Assembly: GCF_026914185.1 (NCBI RefSeq)
Contig: NC_070575.1
Location: 3,245,001-3,309,000, forward strand
Direction of reading: 5' to 3'
DNA length: 64,000 bases
Source: Puccinia triticina
Taxonomy: Eukaryota > Basidiomycota > Pucciniomycetes > Pucciniales > Pucciniaceae
This document shows, piece by piece, positions 22,883 to 43,603 of the stretch. Every line of letters starts with the position of its first letter. Within the stretch, counting starts at the first letter, position 1. The notes under the pieces were generated by a model that did not search any database, was not told the DNA's origin, and saw nothing but the letters and a program-made list of their open reading frames with translations. A program made the position numbers and the translations under genes.

Positions 22883-23711
22883 GGGTCCACTTGCCCGCCC
22901 TTATCCCATTAATGACGCCGCCTCCCTCTTTTGGTGTTCAAGAAGGTTCTCCAAAGCGTCCTTTTCATAGCTTGACGACTACCTTGCTGCGCAAAATCTC
23001 AGCTTTCTGAAAATTTGCAATTGTTCCTTGTTGATTTTTCTTTCCTGTGCGCTTATCACACTACCAAGATGGATGAATTTGTGATGTCGTATATTGATCA
23101 ATATAGCGTATATTGATCAATTTATATTGATCAATTTTTTTTTTTTTTATTATTCCTCTTGATACCTTTGTCTGTTTTCCATGTCTCCTTGATACTATTC
23201 TATAATCTCTCTCCTTCTGCCTGTGTTAGCTTCAAGCCACAGGAATTTTTTTTTTCTTTTGCCTGATAACATTCATAAATTTCTACATACACCACTCAAT
23301 TCTTCCTGAAAAAAAGACATTGCAAGTTTTACGATTAATCCAGGGTAGCTGAGGGGTCTCAAATTTTTTTTCTTTTTTTTTTTACTTCAACAATTGATGT
23401 TATCAGAAGTCTGCAAATCAACTTTTTTTCAAAAGAGGAAAAACATTGACCCCTGACCTCTCTCATGATACCATCCTGCGCACATTTTTAATTTGGTTGG
23501 TTGAACTTGCTCAAGATATTGCATATCATACTTATGCATAGAAGGCCTTTTTGAAATTAGTTTACCATTGTTTAGCATATTTTTGTCAGGTTCTTTTTTT
23601 TATCTACTTTTGTTATCAACCACAGGTTAATGAGGAATATTTCCACATAAAATTTCATTGGACAATTTTTCTGCATATAAAACCCAGAAATATTTTAAAA
23701 TATAATTTATT

Positions 23712-25140
23712 TGGGGTTGCATCCATTATGGAGCAGCAACAATGTGATCAGTTGCCAAATATCACTAATTTAGTGTTTCTGCCACTATATCTCAGCGCAG
23801 CATGGGAGTTCTTCCATGATATTGGTAAAAAAATGATCACATGCCCCTGAAGATTCATTGTGTAGCTTGAATGACCACAAAACCCCCAAATGTAGCAGCC
23901 ACAATGTGATCAGTTGCCAAATATCACTAATTTGGTAGTTCCTTGATGTTTCTGCCACTATATCTCAGCACAGCGTGGGAGTTCTTCCATGATATTCTTA
24001 CCAAAATGATTACATGCCCTCATGCATTCATTGGGTACCTTGAATGACCACAAAACCCCCAAATGTAGCAGCCACGATGTGATCAGTTGCCAAATATCAC
24101 TAATTTGGTAGTTTCTTGGTGTTTCTGCCACTATATCTCAGGCCAGCATGGGATTTCTTCCATGATATTGGTACCAAAATTATCACATGCCCCTGAAGAT
24201 TCATTGTGTACCTTGAATGACCACAAAAACCCCAAATGTAGCAGCTACAAAGTGATCAGTTGCCAAATATCACTAATTTGGTAGTTTTTTGGTGTTTCTG
24301 CCACTTTATCTCAGCGCAGCGTGGGAGTCCTTCCATTATATTGGTACCAAAATAATCAAACGCCCTCAAAGATTCATTGTGTACCTGGAACGACCACAGA
24401 ACCCCCAAATGTAGCAGCCACAATGTGATCAGTTCCCAAATATCACTAATTTGGTAGTTTCTTGATGTTTCTGCCACTATATCTCAGCACAGCATCGGAG
24501 TTGTCCCATGATATTTGTACCAAAATGATCAGATGCCCTCAAGCATTCATTGGGTACCTCGGATGACCACAAAACCCCCAAATGTAGCAGCCAAAATGTG
24601 ACCAGTTGCCACATATCACTAATTTGGTAGTTTCTTGGTGTTTCTGCCACTATATCTCAGCGCAGCATGAGAGTTCTTCCATGATATTGGTACCAAAAGG
24701 ATCACATGCCCTCAAACATTCATTGAGTATCTTGGATGACCACAAAACCCCCGAATGTAGCAGCCACCATGTGATCAGTTGCCAAATATCACTAATTTGG
24801 TAGTTCCTTGGTGTTTCTGCCACTATATCTCAGCCCAGCGTGGGAGTTCTTCCATTATATTGGTACCAAAATTATCACATGCCCCTGAAGATTCATTGTG
24901 TACCTTGAATGACCACAAAACCCCCAAATGTAGCAGCCACAATGTGATCAGTTGCCAAATATCACTAATTTGGTAGTTTCTTGATGTTTCTGCCACTATA
25001 TCTCAGCACAGCGTGGCAGTTCTTCCATGATCATGGTACCAAAATGATCAAATGCCCTCAAAGATTCATTGATTACCTTGGATGACTACAAAACCCCCAA
25101 ATGTAGCAGCCACAATGTGACCAGTTGCCAAATATCACTA
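23712..25140 (+). repeat. Satellite array A, about 172-bp units, plus orientation
   Basis: About eight tandem units are marked by GACCACAAAACCCCCAAATG, TGATCAGTTGCCAAATATCA and TTTCTGCCACTATATCTCAG. The short open frames within it repeat the same peptide and are not genes. Confidence 0.9.
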
Positions 25141-26895
25141 ATTTGGCAACTGATCACAGTGTGGCTGCTACATTTGGGGGTATTGGGGTCATTCAAGGTG
25201 CACAATGAATCTTCAGGGGAATTTGATCATTTTGGTACCAATATCATGGAAGAAATCCCATGCTGGCCTGAGATATAGTGGCAGAAACATCAAGAAACTA
25301 CCAAATTAGTGATATTTGGCAACTGATCACATTGTGGCTGCTACATTTGGGGGTTTTGTGGTCATCCAAGGTACACAATGAATCTTCAGGGCCATTTGAT
25401 CATTTTGGTACTAATATCTTGGAAGAATTCCCATGCTGCGCTGAGATATAGTGGCAGGAACACCAAGAAACTACCAAATTAGTGATATTTGGCAACTGAT
25501 CACATTGTGGCTGCTACATTTGGGGGTTTTGTGGTCATCCAAGGTACTCAATGAATTTTTGAGGGCATGCGATCATTTTGATACCAATATCATGGAAGAA
25601 CTCCCATGCTGCGCTGAGATATAGTGGCAGAAACACCAAGAAACTACCAAATTAGAACATTTGCCAACTGATCACATTGTGGCTGCTACATTTGGGGGTT
25701 TTGTGGTCATTCAAGGTACACAATGAATCTTCAGGGGCATTTGATAATTTTGGTACCAATATCATGGAAGAACTCCCACGCTGTGCTGAGATATAGTGGC
25801 AGAAACATCAAGAAACTACCAAATTAGTGATATTCGTCAACTGATCACATTGTGGCTGCTACATTTGGGGGTTTTGTGGTCATCCAAGGTACTCAATGAA
25901 TGTTTGAGGGCATGTGATCATTTTGAAGAAAATATCAGATCATGGAAGAACTGCCACGCTGTGCTGAGATATAGTGGCAGAAACATCAAGAAACTACCAA
26001 ATTAGTGATATTTGGCAACTGATCACATTGTGGCTGCTGCATTTGGGGGTTTTGTGGTCATTCAAGGTACACAATGAATCTTCAGGGGCATGTGATAATT
26101 TTGGTACCAATATCAAGGAAGAACTCCCACGCTGTGCTGAGATATAGTGGCAGAAACATCAAGAAACTACCAAATTAGTGATATTCGTCAACTGATCACA
26201 TTGTGGCTGCTACATTTGGGGGTTTTGTGGTCATCCAAGTTACTCAATGAATTTTTGAGGGCATGTGATCATTTTGAAGACAATATCATGGAAGAACTCC
26301 CATGCTGCGCTGAGATATAGTGGCAGAAACACCAAAGAACCACCAAATTAGTGATATTTGGCAACTGATCACCTTGTGGCTGCTACATATGGGGGTTTTG
26401 TGGTCATTCTAGGTACAAAATGAATCTTCAGGGGAATGTGATCATTTTGGTAACAATATCATGGAAGAACTCCCACGCTGCGCTGAGATATAGTGGCAGA
26501 AACACCAAGAAACTACCAAATTAGTGATATTTGGCAACTGATCACATGGTGGCTGCTGCATTTGGGGGTTTTGTGGTCATCCAAGGTACTAAATGAATGC
26601 TTGAGGGCATGTGATCATTTTGGTACAAATATCATGGAAGAACTCCCACGCTGTGCTGAGATATAGTGGCAGAAACATCAAGGAACTACCAAATTAGTGA
26701 TATTTGGCAACTGATCACATTGTGGCTGCTACATTTGGGGGTTTTGTGGTCATCCAAGCTACACAATGAATCTTCAGGGGCATGTGATCATTTTTTTACC
26801 AATATCATGGAAGAACTCCCATGCTGCGCTGAGATATAGTGGCAGAAACACCAAATTAGTGATATTTGGCAACTGATCACATTGTTGCTGCTGCA
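25141..26895 (-). repeat. Satellite array A, inverted arm
   Basis: The same ~172-bp unit continues in reverse complement for about ten units. The turn is at about 25125-25160, where CCAAATATCACTAATTTGGC abuts its own complement. The arm ends abruptly at the edge of the retroelement cargo. Confidence 0.9.
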
Positions 26896-27945
26896 TCCTC
26901 CAAGGATCTGAACCCCGGCGAAATAACTCGAAACCACTTCCACAGCTATCAATTCAAATCTGTACGACTCTTTCTGGACAGATCCGTGAGGGCAGTCACC
27001 CCAACACCTTTTCCCCTCCCAGCGCTGCCGCTGGCCTACCACCAAGCTGAGCTCCAAACTGTCCCCACCGGGACGGAGGTGGTTGTCCTTTTTGACGACG
27101 CTGCAATTCCAAACAACAACGACATTGGCCTCCCCTGGTTCTTTGCACAGAATCTCTTAGAATTACGAGCACCTTTGCCATTGACAATCTTCAACAAGTG
27201 GTGGCAGGAACAGGCGTTCCTTCACCAAGCCAAGAAACGGAACAAATCAGACAATGCTAGCGGAGAGCGATTGTGTTATACGGGCTTCCCGTATCCGAGC
27301 GAGTACCTCCAGACGTACCAGGAGTGGTCCGTTAACCACCAGGGCTTTCTTCGGGCCGTCAGCAAGATTCCCTTGCACAGGAACTTGGCAAATTGGATGG
27401 TGATGCACAAGCGGAAGGCAGATGGAATCATAAGGAGGGAAGGCTTTATGACCGCTCTCAGGTACGACATCCATGTAAGGATGAACGCCTTATGTCATCA
27501 GGTTCCGGTACCAGGAGGGCAACTCTCAGTCGCAAACATTTCAATTTTTTGAACCAAAATCATACAAGAGGTCCATGCCAAGACAGGCAGGTTTGGTGAG
27601 ACCAAATTCACCAACAACCCCTACGCCGCTGGAGGCTGCCGTTTTAGTTGGGACCCAACGACCGGACAACAAGCCCGGAAGAAAGACAAGCAGGCGGACA
27701 GGATGCCTCTCCACTTACAACAGCCGGGTAAGTCAATCAACCCCATTAACAAACCCGGCCCTGAAACCCCACAAGGCCCTAGCAACCAGAAGGGAACTGG
27801 CGGCAAGGACGGTGGCTTCAAGGGAGGCAAATGGGGGCCAAGCTACGATTGCAAGGGAGGAGGCCCAGGCAGCGGCGGTGGAGGAAACAGGGGTGGAGGA
27901 GGAGGAGGAGCAGGAAGCGGTTACGGGAAGGGAAAAAGCTATTAG
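26896..27945 (+). pseudogene. Gag-like ORF of a DIRS-type (tyrosine recombinase) retroelement, one internal stop
   Basis: Reads continuously from the satellite junction to TAG at 27943-27945 except for one TGA at 27550-27552. Landmarks are SALRYDI-like TALRYDIHVRMNALCH, then after the stop IIQEVHAKTGRF and NNPYAAGGCRFSWDPTTG, then a Gly-rich tail rather than a zinc knuckle. From memory this pattern occurs in fungal DIRS-like gag proteins. No start codon is seen; the first codons are satellite sequence, so the 5' end is missing. The TGA is consistent with a former CGA. Confidence 0.5.
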
Positions 27946-28199
27946 TTAGCGGTTCTTCTTTTGTTTTAGATCCGTACAGTCTGTTTCTTTGCACGGCCAA
28001 CACCTAGGCCGTGGCAAATGTCTTGTCATTTCTTGTTTTCCATCTATTGTCACAAGGAAATGGATAACAGTCTAACTGACTGGCACCCAATTGGGATTAT
28101 TTGCGCGCAGAAAAGAGAGTCATAAGAGCAATAATGACAAGACACAAGGTGTGCGAGATGGAAAGGTTACACGCTTAGGTTACCAGCAAGCAGCAGATC

Positions 28200-29427
28200 A
28201 GTGCCATCAACCTAATGGAACAAGATGGCCAACAGGCGTCTCCTGCGAGATGAACATTGAAGCATGGGAAGAAGCGCTACGCCGCGCAGACCTACTCCCA
28301 AAGTTCCAAGATGTGTTAGATGGGTTCCGGGATGGTTTTGATCAAGGGATCCCAGAACACCAGTTAAAAGACGTGTCAGCCCTTGGCTAGTCCAGACAGC
28401 GCCAAGGCTGACACCGCACGCACCACAGAAGCACTGTGCGCGCATAATGCCGCTCCAAGCACAGAACGCGCAGAAGACAACGAGTGCGCGCGCGTGCGCA
28501 ACTGAGTAGAGTGCCATCGAGTGTCATACCCGGCTGGGTAACACTCACGGGTTTTCAAGCTCAAGTGAGCACAATCCACGGGTGGATTCAGTTGTCATAG
28601 TTCAAGTGAGTACAATCCACGCGAATGTTATGCGCGTGGATTTAGTTCAACAAGAACGTTGTGGAGACACGATGCCTAAGTGCGGCCATCATTGTTGGCT
28701 ATAAGAAACCTGGGGCCTCCGCCCCACAAAAGGTCCAGCAGATTATTTTTAGATTACAACGCCCGTCACCCTTGTTTGATACAAAAACAACCAGGGCTTT
28801 TATCTAGCCAGATCTCAATTCCCTTCACATCTTCAATCCCCTTCTTCTCTTGCCTTCCTCATCTCTGCCTCCGCCGTCTCCTCCGCTATCACCACCCCCT
28901 CCGCCGTTACCAGCTTCCTCTACCTTCTTCTTCTTTCCACTCGCTACCGTAACCGGTAAGCTAGATTTTCTTTTTACAAACCTTCTCAGGTTCAGGTACA
29001 ACTCAGCTCTACCAGCCCCTCCACCGGAGGCGCGGCTTTCTCCTCCCGCTACGCGGTTGAGTTTGAGTGTGTTTTCCTCTTCAGGAACTCACAATTTGTT
29101 CTTTTCCATTCAGGGCGTCGTCACTTTAGAGACGCGCCCTGACAAGACGAGACGCCTTAATTCACGCCCCCAAATCACACCTCAGCACTCCTAGCAAAGA
29201 CTAAAATCAAGGAATCCATCCGCAAGGAGTTAGAAGCTGGCAGGATGTTTGGGCCATTCACATACGATTAGGTACAGGAATGGTTCAGCTTCTTCAGGAC
29301 AAATCCTCTGGGGGCCGTAATCAACGGCGACGGATCCTTGAGACCAATTAATGATTTGTCATTCCCGCACGGGGAGACAGGAATCCCGTCCATGGACTTG
29401 TTTGTGGACGCCAAAGATTTCCAGACG
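28200..29427 (+). pseudogene. Pol-like fragment of the same retroelement, interrupted by a solo LTR
   Basis: 28230-28373 encodes MNIEAWEEALRRADLLPKFQ followed by DVLDGFRDGFDQGIP. After the inserted LTR, 29195-29427 encodes KIKESIRKELEAGRMFGPF, then a TAG, then NPLGAVINGDGSLRPINDLS. The latter resembles the fingers region of a DIRS-type reverse transcriptase. The fragment stops at the satellite junction before the catalytic YxDD box would appear. A one-base shift separates the LTR edge from the KIKES segment. Confidence 0.5.
28374..29144 (+). mobile_element. Solo LTR, 771 bp, in the pol-like fragment
   Basis: Begins TGTCAGCCCTTGG and ends GCGCCCTGACA. AGACG is duplicated exactly on both sides (28369-28373 and 29145-29149). 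A TATA-like GGCTATAAGAAACC near 28700 and a pyrimidine-rich downstream part fit an LTR promoter. Removing it with one duplication rejoins ...HQLKDAL... in frame, which supports insertion into an open pol frame. Confidence 0.8.
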
Positions 29428-30789
29428 TCAAATGTAGCAGCCACAATGTGATCAGTGGCCAAATATCACTAATTTGGTAATTTCTTGGTGTTTCTGCCAC
29501 TATATCTTAGCGCAGCGTGGGATTTCTTCCATGATATTGGTACCAAAACAATCAAATGCCCTCAAAGATTTATTTTGTACCTTGAATGACTGCAAAATCC
29601 CCAAATGTAGCAGCTACAATGTGATCAGTTGCCAGATATCACTAATTTGGTAGTTTCTTGGTGTTAAGACCCTGACAAAAATATTCTCAACCATGTTAAA
29701 CTAATTTCAAAATGCCTTATATGCAAGTAGCATACCAAGGATCATATGCTAAATCTTCTGGAAATTTCAGGTCACACCAAATTAACAACCCAGGAAGGAT
29801 GGTATTTTGAGAGAGGTGAGGGGTCAATGTTTCCCTTTTTTGACAAAAAGTAGATTTGGAGACTTCTGATAACATCAATGGTTGAAGTAAAAAAAACAAT
29901 TCAAAAATTCTGAGACCCCTGAGCCACCCTGGATTAATCCTAAAACTTTTTTTCAGGAAGAACAGAATGGTGTATGTAGAAATTCATGAATTTTATCAGG
30001 GAAAAAAAGAAAAGATTCCTGTGGCTTGAAGCTAACACAGGGGGAAGTTGAGAGATTATAGAAGAGTATCAAGGCAAAATGGAACACAGAAAAAGGTATC
30101 AAGAAGAATAAAAAAAAATTGATCAATATACGCTATACTGATCAATATACCACTACCAAGATGGATGAATTTGCAATGTTGTATATTGATCAATATAGCG
30201 TATATTGATCAATTTATATTGATCAATTTTTTTTTTTTTATATTCCTGTTGATACCTTTGTCTGTGTTCCATGTCCCTTAATACTCTTCTATAATATCTC
30301 TCCTTCCCCCTGTGTTAGCTTCAAGCCACAGGAATCTTTTTTTTTTTGCCTGATAAAATAAAATTCATGAATTTCTACATACACCATTCAATTCTTCCTG
30401 AAAATGCAAGTTTTAGGATTAATCCAGGGTAGCTGAGGGGTCTCAATTTTTTTTTCTTTTTTTTACATCAACAATTGATGTTATCAGAAGTCTCCAAATC
30501 TACTTTTTTTCAAAAAAGGAAAAACATTGACCCCTGACCTCTCTCATGATACCATCCTGCACTCATTCTTAACTTGGTTGGTTGAACTTCCTGAAGATAT
30601 TGCATATCATACTTGAAGTACTACATGCGTAGAAGGCCTTTTTGAAATTAGTTTACAATGGTTTAGCATATTTTTGTCAGGTTCTTTTTTTTATCTACTT
30701 TTGTTATCAACCACAGATTGATGAGGAATATTTCCTCAGAAAATTTCATTGGGAAATGTTTCTGCGTATGAAACCCAGAAATAATATAT

Positions 30790-33020
30790 TTGGGGTAACA
30801 TCCATTATGCAGCAGCTATAATCTGATCAGTTGCCAAATAGCACTACTTTGGTTGTTTCTTGCTGTTTCTGCAACTATATCTCATCCCAGCCTGGGAATT
30901 TTTCCTTAATATTGGAACCAAAATGTTGACAAGCACATGAAGTTTCATAATGTACCTTTGCTGACCACAAAACCCCCAAATGTAGCACCTACAGTCTGAT
31001 CAGTTTCCAAATATCACTACTTTGGCAGCTTCTTGGTTTTTCTGCCACTATATCTCATCTCAGCGGGGGAATTCTTCTGTCATATTGTAACAAAAACATT
31101 CACAAGCCTCCAAAGTTTCATTATGTACCTTTATTGACCACAAAACCCGCAAATTTAGCAGCTACAGTCTGATCAGTTTCCAAATATCACTACTTTGGTA
31201 GTTTCTGGGTGTTTCTGTCACTATATCTCATCCCAGCGTGGGAATTCTTCTGCAATATGGTTACCAAAATGTTTACAAGACCCCAAAGTTTCATTATGTA
31301 CCTTTTCTCACCACAAAACCCCCAAATGTAGCAGCTACAGTCTGATCATTTTCCAAATATCACTATTTTGGTAGTTTCTGGGTGTTTCTGCCACAATATC
31401 TCATCCCAGCGTGGGTATTCTTCTGCCATATGGTTACCAAAATGTTTACAAGCGGCCAAAGTTTCATTATGTACCTTTGCTGACCACAAAACCCCCAAAT
31501 GTAGCAGCTACAGTCTGATTGGCTTCCAAATATCACTACTTTGGTAGTTTCTGGGGGTTTCTGCCACTGTATCTCATCCCAGTGTGGGAATTCTTCTGCC
31601 ATATGGTTACCAAAATGTTGAAAAGCGTCCAAGATTTCATTATGTACCTTTGTTCACCACAAAACCCCCAAATGTAGCAGCTACAGTCTGATCAGTTTCC
31701 AAATATCACTACTTTGGTAGTTTCTGGGTGTTTCTGCCACTATATCTCATCCCAGCGTGGGTATTCTTCTGCCATATGGTCACCAAAATGTTTACAAGCC
31801 CCCAAAGCTTCATTATGTACCTTTTCTGACCACAAAGCCCCCAAATGTAGCAGCTACAGTCTAATCAGTTTCCAAATATCACTACTTTGGCAGTTTCTGG
31901 GTGTTTCTGCCACTATATCTCATCCCAGTGTGGCTATTCTTCTGCCATATGGTTACCAAAATGTTTAAAATCCCCCAAAGTTTCATTATGTACCTTTGCT
32001 GACCACAAAACCCCCAAATGTAGCAGCTACAGTCTGATCAGTTTCCAAATATCACTACTTTGGTAGTTTCTGGGTGTTTCTGCCACTATATCTCATCCCA
32101 GCGTGGGAATTCTTTTGCCATATGGTTACCAAAATGTTTACAAGCGGCCAAAGTTTCATTATGTTCCTTTGCTGACCACAAAGCCCCCACATGTAGCAGG
32201 CACAGGCTGATCAGTTTCCAAACTTTGGTAGTTTCTGGGTGTTTCTGCCACTATATCTGTTCCCAGGGTGGGAATCCTTTGGCCAGAGTGATACCAAAAT
32301 ATTTACCAGCGGCCAACTTTCCATTATTTAGCTTTGCTGACCACAAAACCCCCAAATGTAGCAGCTACAGTCTGATCAGTTTCCAAATATCACTACTTTG
32401 GCAGTTTCTGGGTGTTTCTGCCACTATATCTCTTCCCAGCGTGGGAAATCTTCTGCCATATGTTTACCAAAATGTTTAAAAGCCCTTAAAGTTCCATTAT
32501 GTTCCTTGACTGACCACAAAACTGTTGGATTTAAAGACCCGTCCTTGGGTTGAGAGGAGGATGGAGAAGAAAGTTTGAAAGAGGAGCTCTTGGGAATTTA
32601 TTATCTTGATGAATCTTGAGGTGGTCAACAAGGAATAATGCTCTGACTCAATGGATTTATTACTATGCGGTCAGAGTACTACTTAAACTAGAATATACTG
32701 CCACACTTGTGACAGCTACAATACAACTTGACAAAAGAACTACATGTCTTAACACGTGAGAAGCTACATGTCTCAAACAGTAAATAAATTTAGCTACAAG
32801 TCTTAATATAATAAAATATGATAATTTTTATGATAATAACTTTTATAACTAGTTAATAAGATACTTTCAGGCTGAGAGTGACTAGAAATTTAACAGAAAC
32901 CCCCACATGTAGCAGGTACAGTCTGATCAGTTTCCAAAAATCACTACTTTGGTAGTTTCTGGGTGTTTCTGCCACTATATCTCATCCCAGCGTGGGAATT
33001 CTTCTGCCAGATTGTCAGTA
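30790..33020 (+). repeat. Satellite array B, about 170-bp units, plus orientation
   Basis: About eleven units are homologous to array A but form a distinct subfamily: GTTTCTGGGTGTTTCTGCCA, CTCATCCCAGCGTGGGAAT and CATATGGTTACCAAAATG replace the A variants. Peptides read from it (for example VVSGCFCHYISSQRG) are repeat artefacts. Confidence 0.9.
32523..32895 (+). mobile_element. Solo LTR, 373 bp, inside satellite array B
   Basis: TGTTGGATTTAAAG...AAATTTAACA interrupts the satellite word ACCACAAAAC / CCCCCACATG. Flanks are AAAAC and GAAAC, a 4-of-5 match expected for a 5-base target duplication. The TGTTGGA start is common in Ty1/copia LTRs. No internal domain is present. Confidence 0.65.
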
Positions 33021-34495
33021 AGTGTACTTAATGAAACTTTGAGGGCTTGTAAACATTTTGGTAACCATAACTGATCAGACTGTAGCTCCTACATTTGGGG
33101 GTTTTGTGGTCAGCAAAGATACATAGTGGAACTTTGGGGGCTTGTAAACATCTTTGTAACAATATGGCAGAGGAATACCCACATTGGGATGAGATATAGT
33201 GGCAGAAACACCCAGAAACTACCAAATTAGTGATATTTGGAAACTGATCAGACTGTAGTTGCTACATTTGGGGGTTTTGTGGTGAACAAAGGTACGTGAT
33301 GAAATTTTGGACGCTTACAAACATTTTGGTAACCATATGGCAGAAGAATACCCACGCTGTAATGAGATATAGTGGCAGAAACATCCAGAAACTGCCAAAG
33401 GAGTGATATTTGGAAACTGATCAGACTGTAGCTGCTACATTTGGGGGTTTTGTGGTCAGCAAAGGTACGTGATGAAATTTTGGACGCTTTTAAACATTTT
33501 GGTAACCATATGGCAGAAGAATACCCACGATGGGATGAGATATAGTGGCAGAAACACCCAGAAACTACCAAAGTTTGGAAACTGATCAGCCTGTACCTGC
33601 TACATATGGGGGCTTTGTGGTCAGCAAAGGTACATAATGAAACTTTGGCCGCTTGTAAACATTTTGGTAACCATATGGCAAAGGAATTCCCACGCTGGGA
33701 TGAGATATAGTGGCAGAAACACCCAGAAACTACCAAAGTAGTGATATTTGGAAACTGATCAGACTGTAGCTGCTACATTTGGGGGTTTTGTGGTCAGCAA
33801 AGGTGCATAATAAAACTTTGGGGGATTTTAAACATTTTGGTAACCATATGCCAGAAGAATACCCACGCTGGGATGAGATATAGTGGCAGAAACACCCAGA
33901 AACTGCCAAAGTAGTGATATTTGGAAACTGATCAGACTGTAGTTGCTGCATTTGGGGGTTTTGTGGTAAACAAAGGTATGTGATGAAATTTTGGACGCTT
34001 TTAAACATTTTGGTAACCATATGGCAGAAGAATACCCACGCTGGGATGAGATATAGTGGCAGAAACACCCAGAAACTGCCAAAGTAGTGATATTTGGAAA
34101 CTGATCAGACTGTAGGTGCTACACTTAGGTGTTTTGTGGTCAGCAAAGGTACATTATGAAACTTTGTGTGCTTGCCAACATTTTGTTACCAATATTTTGG
34201 AAAAATTCCCAGGCTGGGATGAGATATAGTTGCAGAAACACCAAGAAACAACCAAAGTAGTGCTATTTGGAAACTGATCAGACTGTAGGTGCTACATTTG
34301 GGGGTTTTGTGGTCAGCAAAGGTACGTTATGAAACTTTGTGTGCTTGTCAACATTTTGGTACCAATATTAAGGAAAAATTCCCAGGCTGGGATGAGATAT
34401 ATTTGCAGAAACACCAAGAAACAACCAAAGTAGTTCTATTTGGCAACTGATCAGATTATAGCTGTCGCATAATGGATGTGACCCCAAATATATTA
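33021..34495 (-). repeat. Satellite array B, inverted arm
   Basis: About eight units of the B subfamily run in reverse complement. It ends in the same CCATTATG...CCCCAAATATATTATTTC edge that opens the plus arm, so the arms are mirror images with matching boundaries. Confidence 0.9.
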
Positions 34496-34888
34496 TTTCT
34501 GGGTTTTATATGCAGAAAAATTCCCCAATGAAATTTTCTGAGGAAATATTCCTCATCAATCTGTGGTTGATATCAAAAGTAGATAAAAAAAAGAACCTGA
34601 CAAAAATATGCTAAACCACGGTAAACTAATTCCAAAAAGGCCTTCTAGTATGCATGTAGTACTCGAAGTATGCTATGCAATATCTTCAAGAAGTTCAACC
34701 AACCAAGTTAAGAATGAGTGCAGGATGGTATCATGAGAGAGGTCAGGGGTCAATGTTTTTCCTTTTTTGAAAAAAAGTAGATTTGGAGAAGCTAACACAG
34801 GGGGAAGGAGACAGATTATAGAAGAGTATTAAGGAGACATGGAATACAGACAAAGGTATCAACAGGAATAAAAAAAAATAAAAAAAAA

Positions 34889-35213
34889 TTGATCAATATA
34901 AATTGATCAATATACACTATATTGATCAATATAAATTGATCAATATACACTATATTGATCAATATAAATTGATCAATATACACTATATTGATCAATATAA
35001 ATTGATCAATATACACTATATTGATCAATATAAATTGATCAATATACACTATATTGATCAATATAAATTGATCAATATACACTATATTGATCAATATACA
35101 CTATATTGATCAATATACACTATATTGATCAATATACACTATATTGATCAATATACACTATATTGATCAATATACACTATATTGATCAATATACACTATA
35201 TTGATCAATATAC
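34889..35213. repeat. ATTGATCAATATA tandem array (33-bp then 19-bp units)
   Basis: Six copies of a 33-base unit (AATATAAATTGATCAATATA plus CACTATATTGATC) switch to about six copies of a 19-base unit made only of the CTATATTGATCAATATACA part. Each unit contains the palindrome TTGATCAA. The other three element ends carry only two or three such motifs, so this is a local expansion in the right end of element B. Confidence 0.9.
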
Positions 35214-35280
35214 GACATCGCAAATTCATCCATCTTGGTAGTGTACAACATCACAAATTCATCCATGTTGGTAGTGATAG

Positions 35281-35490
35281 CGTAGCATAGCGTAGCATAG
35301 CGTAGCATAGCGTAGCATAGCGTAGCATAGCGTATCATAGCGTAGCATAGCGTAGCATAGCGTATCATAGCGTAGCATAGCGTAGCATAGCGTAGCATAG
35401 CGTAGCATAGCGTAGCATAGCGTAGCATAGCGTAGCATAGCGTAGCATAGCGTAGCATAGCGTAGCATAGCGTAGCATAGCGTAGCATAG
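35281..35490. repeat. 10-bp minisatellite, 21 copies
   Basis: Twenty-one head-to-tail copies of CGTAGCATAG. Copies at 35331 and 35361 read CGTATCATAG. A degenerate edge continues to about 35505. The array directly abuts the last transposon tip. Open frames across it are repeat artefacts. Confidence 0.95.
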
Positions 35491-42654: not shown

Positions 42655-43603
42655 TCCAAAACCAGCCCCCATTTGGAGTGCCCAACCCGGCACTCCAGGC
42701 TGGTATGGAGTGAACACCCTGCCACGCCAAAACCAGCCACCCCTCAATGGCCGGTCTGCGCCGGCCATTGAGGGCAGTATGCACACTTGATGACCGGCAC
42801 AGGCCGGCCATCGAGGGCAGTACACTCGATGACCGGCGCAGGCCGGTCATCGAGCGGACACACCCCTCTCGATGACCGGCACAGGCCGGCCATCGAGGGC
42901 AGTACACTTGATGACCGGCGCAGGCCGGTCATCGAGCGGACACACCCCTCTCAATGACCGGCAAAGACTGGTCATTAAGAGACACACTCCTCTCAATGAC
43001 CGGCATAGACCGGTCATCAAGAGACACACTCCTCTCAATGACCGGTTTGTACCGGTCATCAAGAGGACACACCCCTCTTGATGACCGGAATAGACCGGTC
43101 ATCGAGAGGACAGATCCCTCTTGATGACCGGGATAGGCCGGTCATCAAGAGGACACCCCCTCTCAATGACCGGTCTATCCTGCTCATTGAAAGGACAAAT
43201 CCCTCTCAATGACCGGTACAGACCAGTCATTGAGAGGGATATATCCTCTTGATGACCGGTCTATGCCGGTCATCAAGAGGGTGTGTTCTCTTGATGACCG
43301 GTACAAACCGGTCATCGAGAGGGATGGATCCTCATTGAGAGGAGTGTGTCTCTCGATGACCGGTCTTTGCCAGTCATCAAGAGGGGTGTTTCCGCTCAAT
43401 GACCGGCCTGCGCCGGTCATCGAGTGTACTGCCCTCAATGGCCGGCCTGTGCCGGTCATCAAGTGTGCATACTGCCCTCAATGGCCGGTGCAGACCGGCT
43501 ATCAAGGGGTGGCTGGTTTTGGCGTGGCAGGGTGTTCACTCCATACCAGCCTGGAGTGCCGGGTTGGGCACTCCAAATGGGGGCTGGTTTTGGAGTGAAC
43601 AAT
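42655..43603. mobile_element. Long palindromic foldback element built of GACCGG hairpin repeats
   Basis: The ends CACTCCAAAACCAGCCCCCA and its complement are perfect inverted repeats that extend about 120 bases, including GGCACTCCAGGCTGGTATGG. Between them (42745-43510) lie about fifteen units, each itself a hairpin of the form TCAATGACCGG-N-CCGGTCATCGAG separated by GGACACA-type spacers. The orientation mirrors around 43130, so the whole ~950 bases can fold back. No coding potential or clear target duplication is seen. Confidence 0.8.

Follow-up and report, generated by a model that had tools for sequence, protein, structure and literature searches.

Closest described elements

Tetris of Drosophila virilis, in which satellite-like tandem repeats already lie inside foldback arms (PMC4079207), is the nearest comparison for two elements that we describe here from Puccinia triticina. 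The two, element 1 (satellite subfamily A) and element 2 (subfamily B), carry CACTA-type tips around inverted arrays of a 173-bp satellite and lie in a stretch of 64,000 nucleotides (assembly GCF_026914185.1, contig NC_070575.1, forward-strand positions 3,245,001 to 3,309,000), which as a whole we call the window. Like Tetris, the P. triticina elements have a foldback structure with long terminal repeats, internal tandem repeats of variable number, and no known autonomous partner, and they appear non-autonomous. The internal repeats of Tetris are ~220 bp long, with larger satellite arrays inside the element (PMC4079207). Unlike the elements here, Tetris has target duplications of 8–10 bp, was assigned to Mutator by its authors, and is represented by three structurally complete copies, whereas CACTA tips and 3-bp duplications (in 25 of 32 elements examined) are found in P. 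triticina. The Tetris repeats also have 37 bp in common with the terminal domain, while here a BLAST comparison (word 5, E up to 1) found no similarity between monomer and terminal repeat, and an origin of the monomer from the terminal repeat was rejected on this basis. Of the traits of Tetris, internal tandem repeats in inverted arms are therefore present (173-bp units) and duplications of 8–10 bp are not (3 bp); this difference excludes membership, not a likeness in how the elements work.

CACTA ends, a 3-bp duplication, and an inner array are also known from Chenopodium quinoa CACTA elements with a captured 171-bp satellite array, and from Jozin (PMC8978399, PMC7320549). Those elements keep a transposase and have their array close to the 3′ end, or else have monomers derived from tnp2 (PMC8978399, PMC7320549), whereas here the arrays form inverted arms and no coding core was seen. 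EnSpm/CACTA families of Puccinia likewise have CAC..GTG termini and 3-bp duplications; they encode transposases and some a TET/JBP protein, and satellite-bearing foldback forms go unmentioned in the available part of that account (PMC12730594). In P. graminis, CACTA elements make up 33% of one centromere (PMC8444563). Galileo of Drosophila is foldback-like with tandem repeats in its terminal repeats, but it belongs to the P superfamily (PMC4168063), and extra transposase binding sites have been proposed for the repeats of Galileo and Tetris (PMC4079207). Oyster Helentrons are another case of a mobile element spreading short satellite arrays (PMC7492417). Precedents thus exist in the Tetris foldback and in the satellite-bearing CACTA elements of Chenopodium. 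The tandem repeats of Galileo are not known to form most of its interior, and the oyster Helentron carriers are of Helitron type and not known to have inverted arms. The original prediction, made from the window, knew of no fungal element of this form, and our top-ranked literature matches likewise held no fungal satellite-bearing foldback, with Repbase and subscription journals outside the scope of that search.

How satellite DNA spreads between genomic sites has long been a question. Moving a transposon of this kind also moves ready-made satellite arrays around chromosomes, and with hundreds of tips, shared junctions, 3-bp duplications, and monomer comparisons over 18 contigs, transposition can be distinguished from local array change.

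Ends, target duplications, and satellite arms across the genome

We searched the assembly of 122,823,596 bases in 18 contigs (C1–C18; fetched loci carry L numbers). Tips, 3-bp duplications, and inverted satellite occur as one unit at many sites, and these are very probably non-autonomous DNA transposons with CACTA-type ends and a foldback body of satellite arms, in agreement with the original prediction. As in CACTA/EnSpm elements, the terminal inverted repeats start CACTA/CACTR (CACTACCAAGATGG), and short subterminal repeats, direct and inverted, are present as TATATTGATCAATATA-type units beside the window tips. The tip 14-mer CACTACCAAGATGG has 352 exact genomic copies (169 + 183), compared with 1 + 0 for a reversed control. 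Positions were listed for 295 of the 352, split by preceding base and incomplete on C13–C18. Among these 295 there are 74 cases of a plus tip followed within 12 kb by a minus tip and 6 of the opposite order; plus–minus pairs of less than 30 kb number 98 and sum to 936,334 bp. All 20 pairs that were fetched whole, from the 23 listed pairs under 10 kb, contain the satellite as plus then minus with tips at both ends, and segment mapping shows 12 of them to be made up of terminal repeat and satellite only. Tested on 8 of the 18 contigs, the densest 0.5-Mb interval along the chromosome was above simulation on C1, C4, and C9, and not above it on C2, C3, C5, C6, and C10. A 708-bp element, L052 (C10:6222044–6222751), is bordered by an AAA duplication where the neighboring sequence is A-rich; segment mapping shows no satellite in it, and it is a MITE-like (miniature inverted-repeat transposable element) end point of the family.

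Exact 3-bp target duplications, a check named beforehand, flank 16 of 20 elements in the first fetched batch and 25 of the 32 elements whose two ends were both recovered, a set that includes four pairs picked as shortest and three elements of a family C (described below). When left and right flanks of different elements were combined as a control, 26 of 992 combinations matched, and a 4-bp match was found in 1 of 32. Because the 3-bp duplications mark the tips as element ends, the tips are not part of a larger unrelated repeat. In addition, a 397-bp query made by joining the two flanks of L020 directly (join at 200) has seven uninterrupted genomic matches, covering query positions 162–397 at 90–95% identity, on C13, C3, C11, C14, C1 (two), and C15. 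These empty-site matches extend 38 bp left of the join, and the outer left flank (1–172 at most) matches elsewhere. The best 40 of 733 candidates were scored for this one flank pair; of the 41 matches listed, two are L020’s own flanks, and the others apart from the seven are one-sided.

The satellite itself is closely associated with the tips. A satellite 20-mer has 1407 + 1478 genomic copies, and of the first 100 listed, which cover C1 up to 6.12 Mb, 99 fall within six elements with tips at both ends, two of which have one substituted tip and one of which is of family C; the lone copy away from tips is at C1:1440645. A rarer monomer variant occurs at 17 places, and 8 of the 12 on C1–C12 are in or next to tipped elements (by eye); the other 5 lie on C13–C18, where the tip lists are incomplete. 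In these samples the satellite is thus not found mostly in arrays without tips.

The inversion junction, where the two arms meet, is shared between sites. A 29-mer across the junction of A elements has 62 genomic copies, of which 42 are exact and 20 carry one mismatch. They are spread over 17 of the 18 contigs, with none on C6, and lie in both reading directions, as insertion in either orientation would predict. Listed tips lie within 30 kb on both sides of 41 of these junctions, on one side of 12, and on neither side of 9, and 8 of the 9 sit on C13–C17, where the tip lists are incomplete. Nine of 12 fetched A loci belong to the 62 places; by eye, the junctions of L016 and L018 look like mutated forms of the A junction, and L012 breaks elsewhere. 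Of 38 A junctions with listed tips, 30 have the shorter arm on their GAATGG side (medians 2.2 vs. 5.1 kb). The B junction occurs at 10 genomic places within 3 mismatches, element 2 (C18:3278003) among them. Other junctions are found in the B-type elements L009, L011, L014, L026, L028, and L055, and inversion or core loss therefore occurred more than once.

Two nested elements in the window

The elements were originally described as adjacent, within 23059..35243. Rather, element 2 has inserted into the right end of element 1 with the target TAC duplicated, and of the earlier extent the start holds and the end does not: the right tip of element 1 reaches 35276. The sequence ...ATATAC precedes the start of element 2 at 30151, and TAC AACATCACAAATTCATCCATGTTGGTAGTG follows directly after its end, at 35244–35276. 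The stretch of the element 1 right end that element 2 cuts stays uninterrupted in L052 and L053. Element 2 is nested in element 1 because TAC stands on both sides and the stretch is uninterrupted in these other copies, and this nesting is in itself an example of insertion with duplication of 3 bp. The features are as follows, with their basis in brackets (TRF, Tandem Repeats Finder).

23059..35276, element 1, satellite subfamily A, interrupted by element 2 (tip sequences, segment map, end comparison)
23059..23727, plus strand, element 1 left terminal region with CACTACCAAGATGG tip, three TTGATCAA palindromes, and ~640-bp terminal repeat
23728..25146, plus strand, satellite A plus arm in 173-bp units (TRF, segment map)
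25147..26896, minus strand, satellite A minus arm (segment map)
26897..29432, plus strand, foreign 2.5-kb insertion in element 1 (segment map)
29433..29665, plus strand, 1.3 satellite A monomers in unexpected plus orientation beside the right terminal repeat (segment map)
29666..30150, minus strand, element 1 right terminal repeat, truncated, ending at the element 2 insertion point
30148..30150, plus strand, target site TAC, first copy (end comparison)
30151..35243, element 2, satellite subfamily B, inside the right end of element 1 (tips, segment map, end comparison)
30151..30780, plus strand, element 2 left terminal repeat (segment map)
30807..33017, plus strand, satellite B plus arm, broken by a 378-bp insertion at 32523–32900 (TRF, segment map)
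33018..34470, minus strand, satellite B minus arm (segment map)
34497..35243, minus strand, element 2 right terminal repeat (segment map, TRF)
35244..35246, plus strand, target site TAC, second copy (end comparison)
35244..35276, minus strand, remaining right tip of element 1, 33 bp, with one substitution in the 14-mer

The tips and subterminal TTGATCAA motifs that the original prediction saw as shared are present in both elements, with three TTGATCAA palindromes at each left end. The ~170-bp satellite in opposing orientation was likewise recovered, with a TRF unit of 173 bp and plus followed by minus arms. The inverted arms in the window are 0.9–1.2 kb long with 89–92% complementarity, corresponding to the very long inverted terminal repeats, forming the greater part of the element, by which foldback elements are recognized. 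The element 1 junction at 25146/25147 falls at the edge of the monomer’s own short inverted repeat CCAAATATCACTAATTTGG, and differs from the common A junction by 2 mismatches in 29 (by eye). In the right repeat of element 2, a 19-bp unit ATTGATCAATATACACTAT is expanded to ~17.7 copies at 34902–35213 (TRF), overlapping a row of 33-bp units with 9.4 copies.

Element 1 is damaged, as seen from its foreign piece, wrong-orientation monomers, and truncated right end. The insertion at 26897–29432 reads by eye as a retroelement fragment, and two open frames examined in it matched no Pfam family. The monomers at 29433..29665 are a rearranged part of the right arm. The outer flanks of element 1 are TCA and ATA, without a 3-bp duplication. 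A 10-bp minisatellite ATAGCGTAGC (21.4 copies, 98% matches, 35277–35490) starts right after the right tip of element 1 and may be the cause of the missing duplication. The 378-bp insertion of element 2 (32523–32900) is also present in the B element L021 (L021:2556–2957); it is TGTTG...AACA ended and by eye resembles a solo long terminal repeat.

Spread of the satellite arrays

Comparison of 504 monomers cut from 25 elements upheld the two satellite subfamilies, with a mean identity of 0.779 between A and B (77.9%, vs. 86–88% inside a family) and of 0.865 between A and C. Identity within an arm compared with that between elements was 0.880 and 0.875 for A, and 0.882 and 0.885 for C. Concerted evolution inside each array accordingly shows little sign in A and C, and a little in B. 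The nearest relative is in the same element for 162 of the 504 monomers. For monomers of the 12 A elements fetched, best matches average 0.960 in another A element and 0.932 in the monomer’s own element. Counted from the tip, short-arm monomers match a monomer of equal rank in another element in 227 of 1089 cases, compared with 27 after shuffling. The two terminal repeats of one A element are 0.937 alike, and same-side repeats of different elements are 0.953–0.955 alike, with the own partner the nearest relative for 0 of 22 repeats (11 elements, orientation partly by eye).

Because the junction recurs at 62 places and matches to other elements exceed those within an element (96.0% vs. 93.2%), the satellite arrays travel inside the transposon. 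The arrays spread with copies of a few founder elements and were not rebuilt at each site, and we read the monomer relationships as those of arrays that moved as units and changed length later. The suggestion that such an element offers a route by which a transposon becomes a satellite carrier thus stands as far as carriage is concerned, and not for a transposon turning into free satellite.

TGATCA, the core of the subterminal palindrome, occurs 408 times in 284 A monomers, 124 times in 149 B monomers, and 68 times in 71 C monomers, where mononucleotide shuffles give 15, 8, and 3, respectively. By analogy with the binding sites proposed for other foldback repeats, it is possible that these are putative extra binding sites, and a passenger role is equally possible. 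Other monomer blocks are at least as conserved as TGATCA, and some of the most conserved windows are inflated by the anchor used for cutting the monomers.

Family C and the search for a transposase

Variant tips, in which position 7 is A, G, or T, are found at 117 places (57 + 60), and 92 of the 100 listed read CACTACAAACATGGATGAATTTG (counted by eye). Family C (L067 and L068 whole; C1:2735558 from its ends and center) has different terminal repeats and carries satellite A as minus then plus. The centers of L067 and L068 hold relics of A/B terminal repeats, one in each direction and with the tips gone, and in the third element both arms meet directly. All three have 3-bp duplications. From this arrangement, family C is probably an inside-out rearrangement between neighboring A-type elements under new ends.

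For PF02992 (CACTA transposase), 150 genomic matches were scored, the best 150 of 179 candidates. The original prediction had suggested looking for an autonomous CACTA partner, and none emerged: no transposase with the element tips was found when PF02992 and PF18759 matches were compared with tip positions. L031–L051 gave no terminal-repeat or satellite match, with L031–L050 reaching only ~1.5 kb beyond the domain; neither these loci nor L069 contain the TTGATCAATAT motif, although the element ends of L031–L050 may fall outside the pieces. Two candidates were rejected, namely L051 on C9, which bears a CACTA tip of another kind on the side available, and L069 on C6 (1,201 bases), which has no terminal-repeat or satellite similarity. 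A 31-kb A element on C9 (C9:1317625–1348522) has an intact ATT duplication, terminal repeats, and an inner CACTA transposase match. In this case, the sole long pair inspected, a different CACTA tip accompanies the transposase on the single side available, and nesting therefore reaches tens of kilobases.

Mechanism and alternative explanations

The body of these elements consists of ~640-bp terminal repeats followed by two facing satellite arms that meet at the inversion junction, without a coding core seen. The elements look non-autonomous because no PF02992 match lies within the 98 A/B pairs under 30 kb, and from the same lack of matches we infer movement in trans, in which the CACTA/EnSpm transposase of another element would act on the tips and TTGATCAA subterminal repeats. 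Array length could then change, mostly in one arm, by unequal exchange or by slippage during replication, and the TGATCA present in most monomers may supply the transposase with further sites. Rearrangement between neighboring elements would probably have put the satellite under new ends, giving rise to family C. More tentatively, since we hold it to be a possibility rather than a probability, nearly all of the satellite may be a mobile passenger, with neighboring copies recombining or transposing from facing ends to yield family C, and with transposition, not in-place homogenization, shaping the satellite. If this is true, transposition would be the force spreading and shaping the 173-bp satellite.

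Several observations weigh against this account or parts of it. Exact 3-bp duplications are lacking in 7 of 32 elements, element 1 included, and 8 of the 20 mapped elements also contain stretches that are neither terminal repeat nor satellite. Four of the 12 rare-variant monomers on C1–C12 have no listed tip nearby, with loci on C2, C5, and C6. B monomers are 0.883 alike within an element vs. 0.864 between elements, and some local homogenizing is therefore possible. In the long arm, rank orthology from the tip is weak (123 of 1859 vs. 60 shuffled) and the rank signal from the junction is absent (70 vs. 74 shuffled). Only 9 of 22 terminal repeats have a same-side repeat as nearest relative, and TGATCA lies outside the 12 most conserved monomer windows listed. 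As for the transposase, none of the 98 A/B tip pairs under 30 kb contains any of the 150 scored PF02992 matches; seven matches lie inside six longer A/B pairs (31–317 kb), and among the 31 C pairs under 36 kb a single one, of 33.4 kb, contains one. The related PF18759 (Plavaka), with 29 matches, has none in 139 A/B/C pairs under 36 kb. With no transposase of their own found, the assignment to the CACTA superfamily therefore rests on the ends and the duplication length. PIF/Harbinger elements also make 3-bp duplications, and the CACTA tips argue against them.

On one hand, the satellite might be an ordinary dispersed one, into which CACTA elements repeatedly inserted or of which they captured pieces. 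The monomers away from listed tips at C1:1440645 and at three loci on C2, C5, and C6 would fit this, as would the satellite under other ends in family C. However, we consider it improbable, given the 99 of 100 listed C1 copies inside six tip-bounded elements, the same junction at 62 places, 41 of them between listed tips, and the different flanks of each element with their 3-bp duplications. An assembly artefact deserves mention in that long-read assembly is known to produce inverted arrays in error, which would here be palindromic arrays from chimeric long reads or collapsed repeats. Yet arm lengths vary between copies, the same asymmetric differences flank the junction in many copies, and the outer ends carry matching 3-bp duplications, so that we give this explanation hardly any credence.

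On the other hand, an origin as deletion derivatives is compatible with transposons of CACTA type with satellite arms, as it concerns origin only: an autonomous CACTA element with arrays in both subterminal regions would have lost its core, with the A and B junctions as independent deletion points. Internal deletion is the usual source of non-autonomous CACTA elements, and the junctions of A, B, and other elements lie at different monomer phases. Against it, a layout of plus satellite, coding core, and minus satellite is absent from the 20 mapped elements, and the 98 pairs under 30 kb hold no transposase match; we regard this origin as quite possible, if short of favored. It is also conceivable, but rather unlikely in our view, that the inverted arrays are not passengers and are kept for a putative host-facing effect, such as long double-stranded RNA feeding or evading silencing. 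Every element is a kilobase-scale inverted repeat, and centromeric small RNAs have been reported in P. graminis (PMC8444563), both of which would suit such a role.

Other repeats in the window

Away from the two elements, the window holds a GC-rich minisatellite at 42760–43488, with units of 39–43 bp that are each palindromic (CGATGACCGG...CCGGTCATCG).

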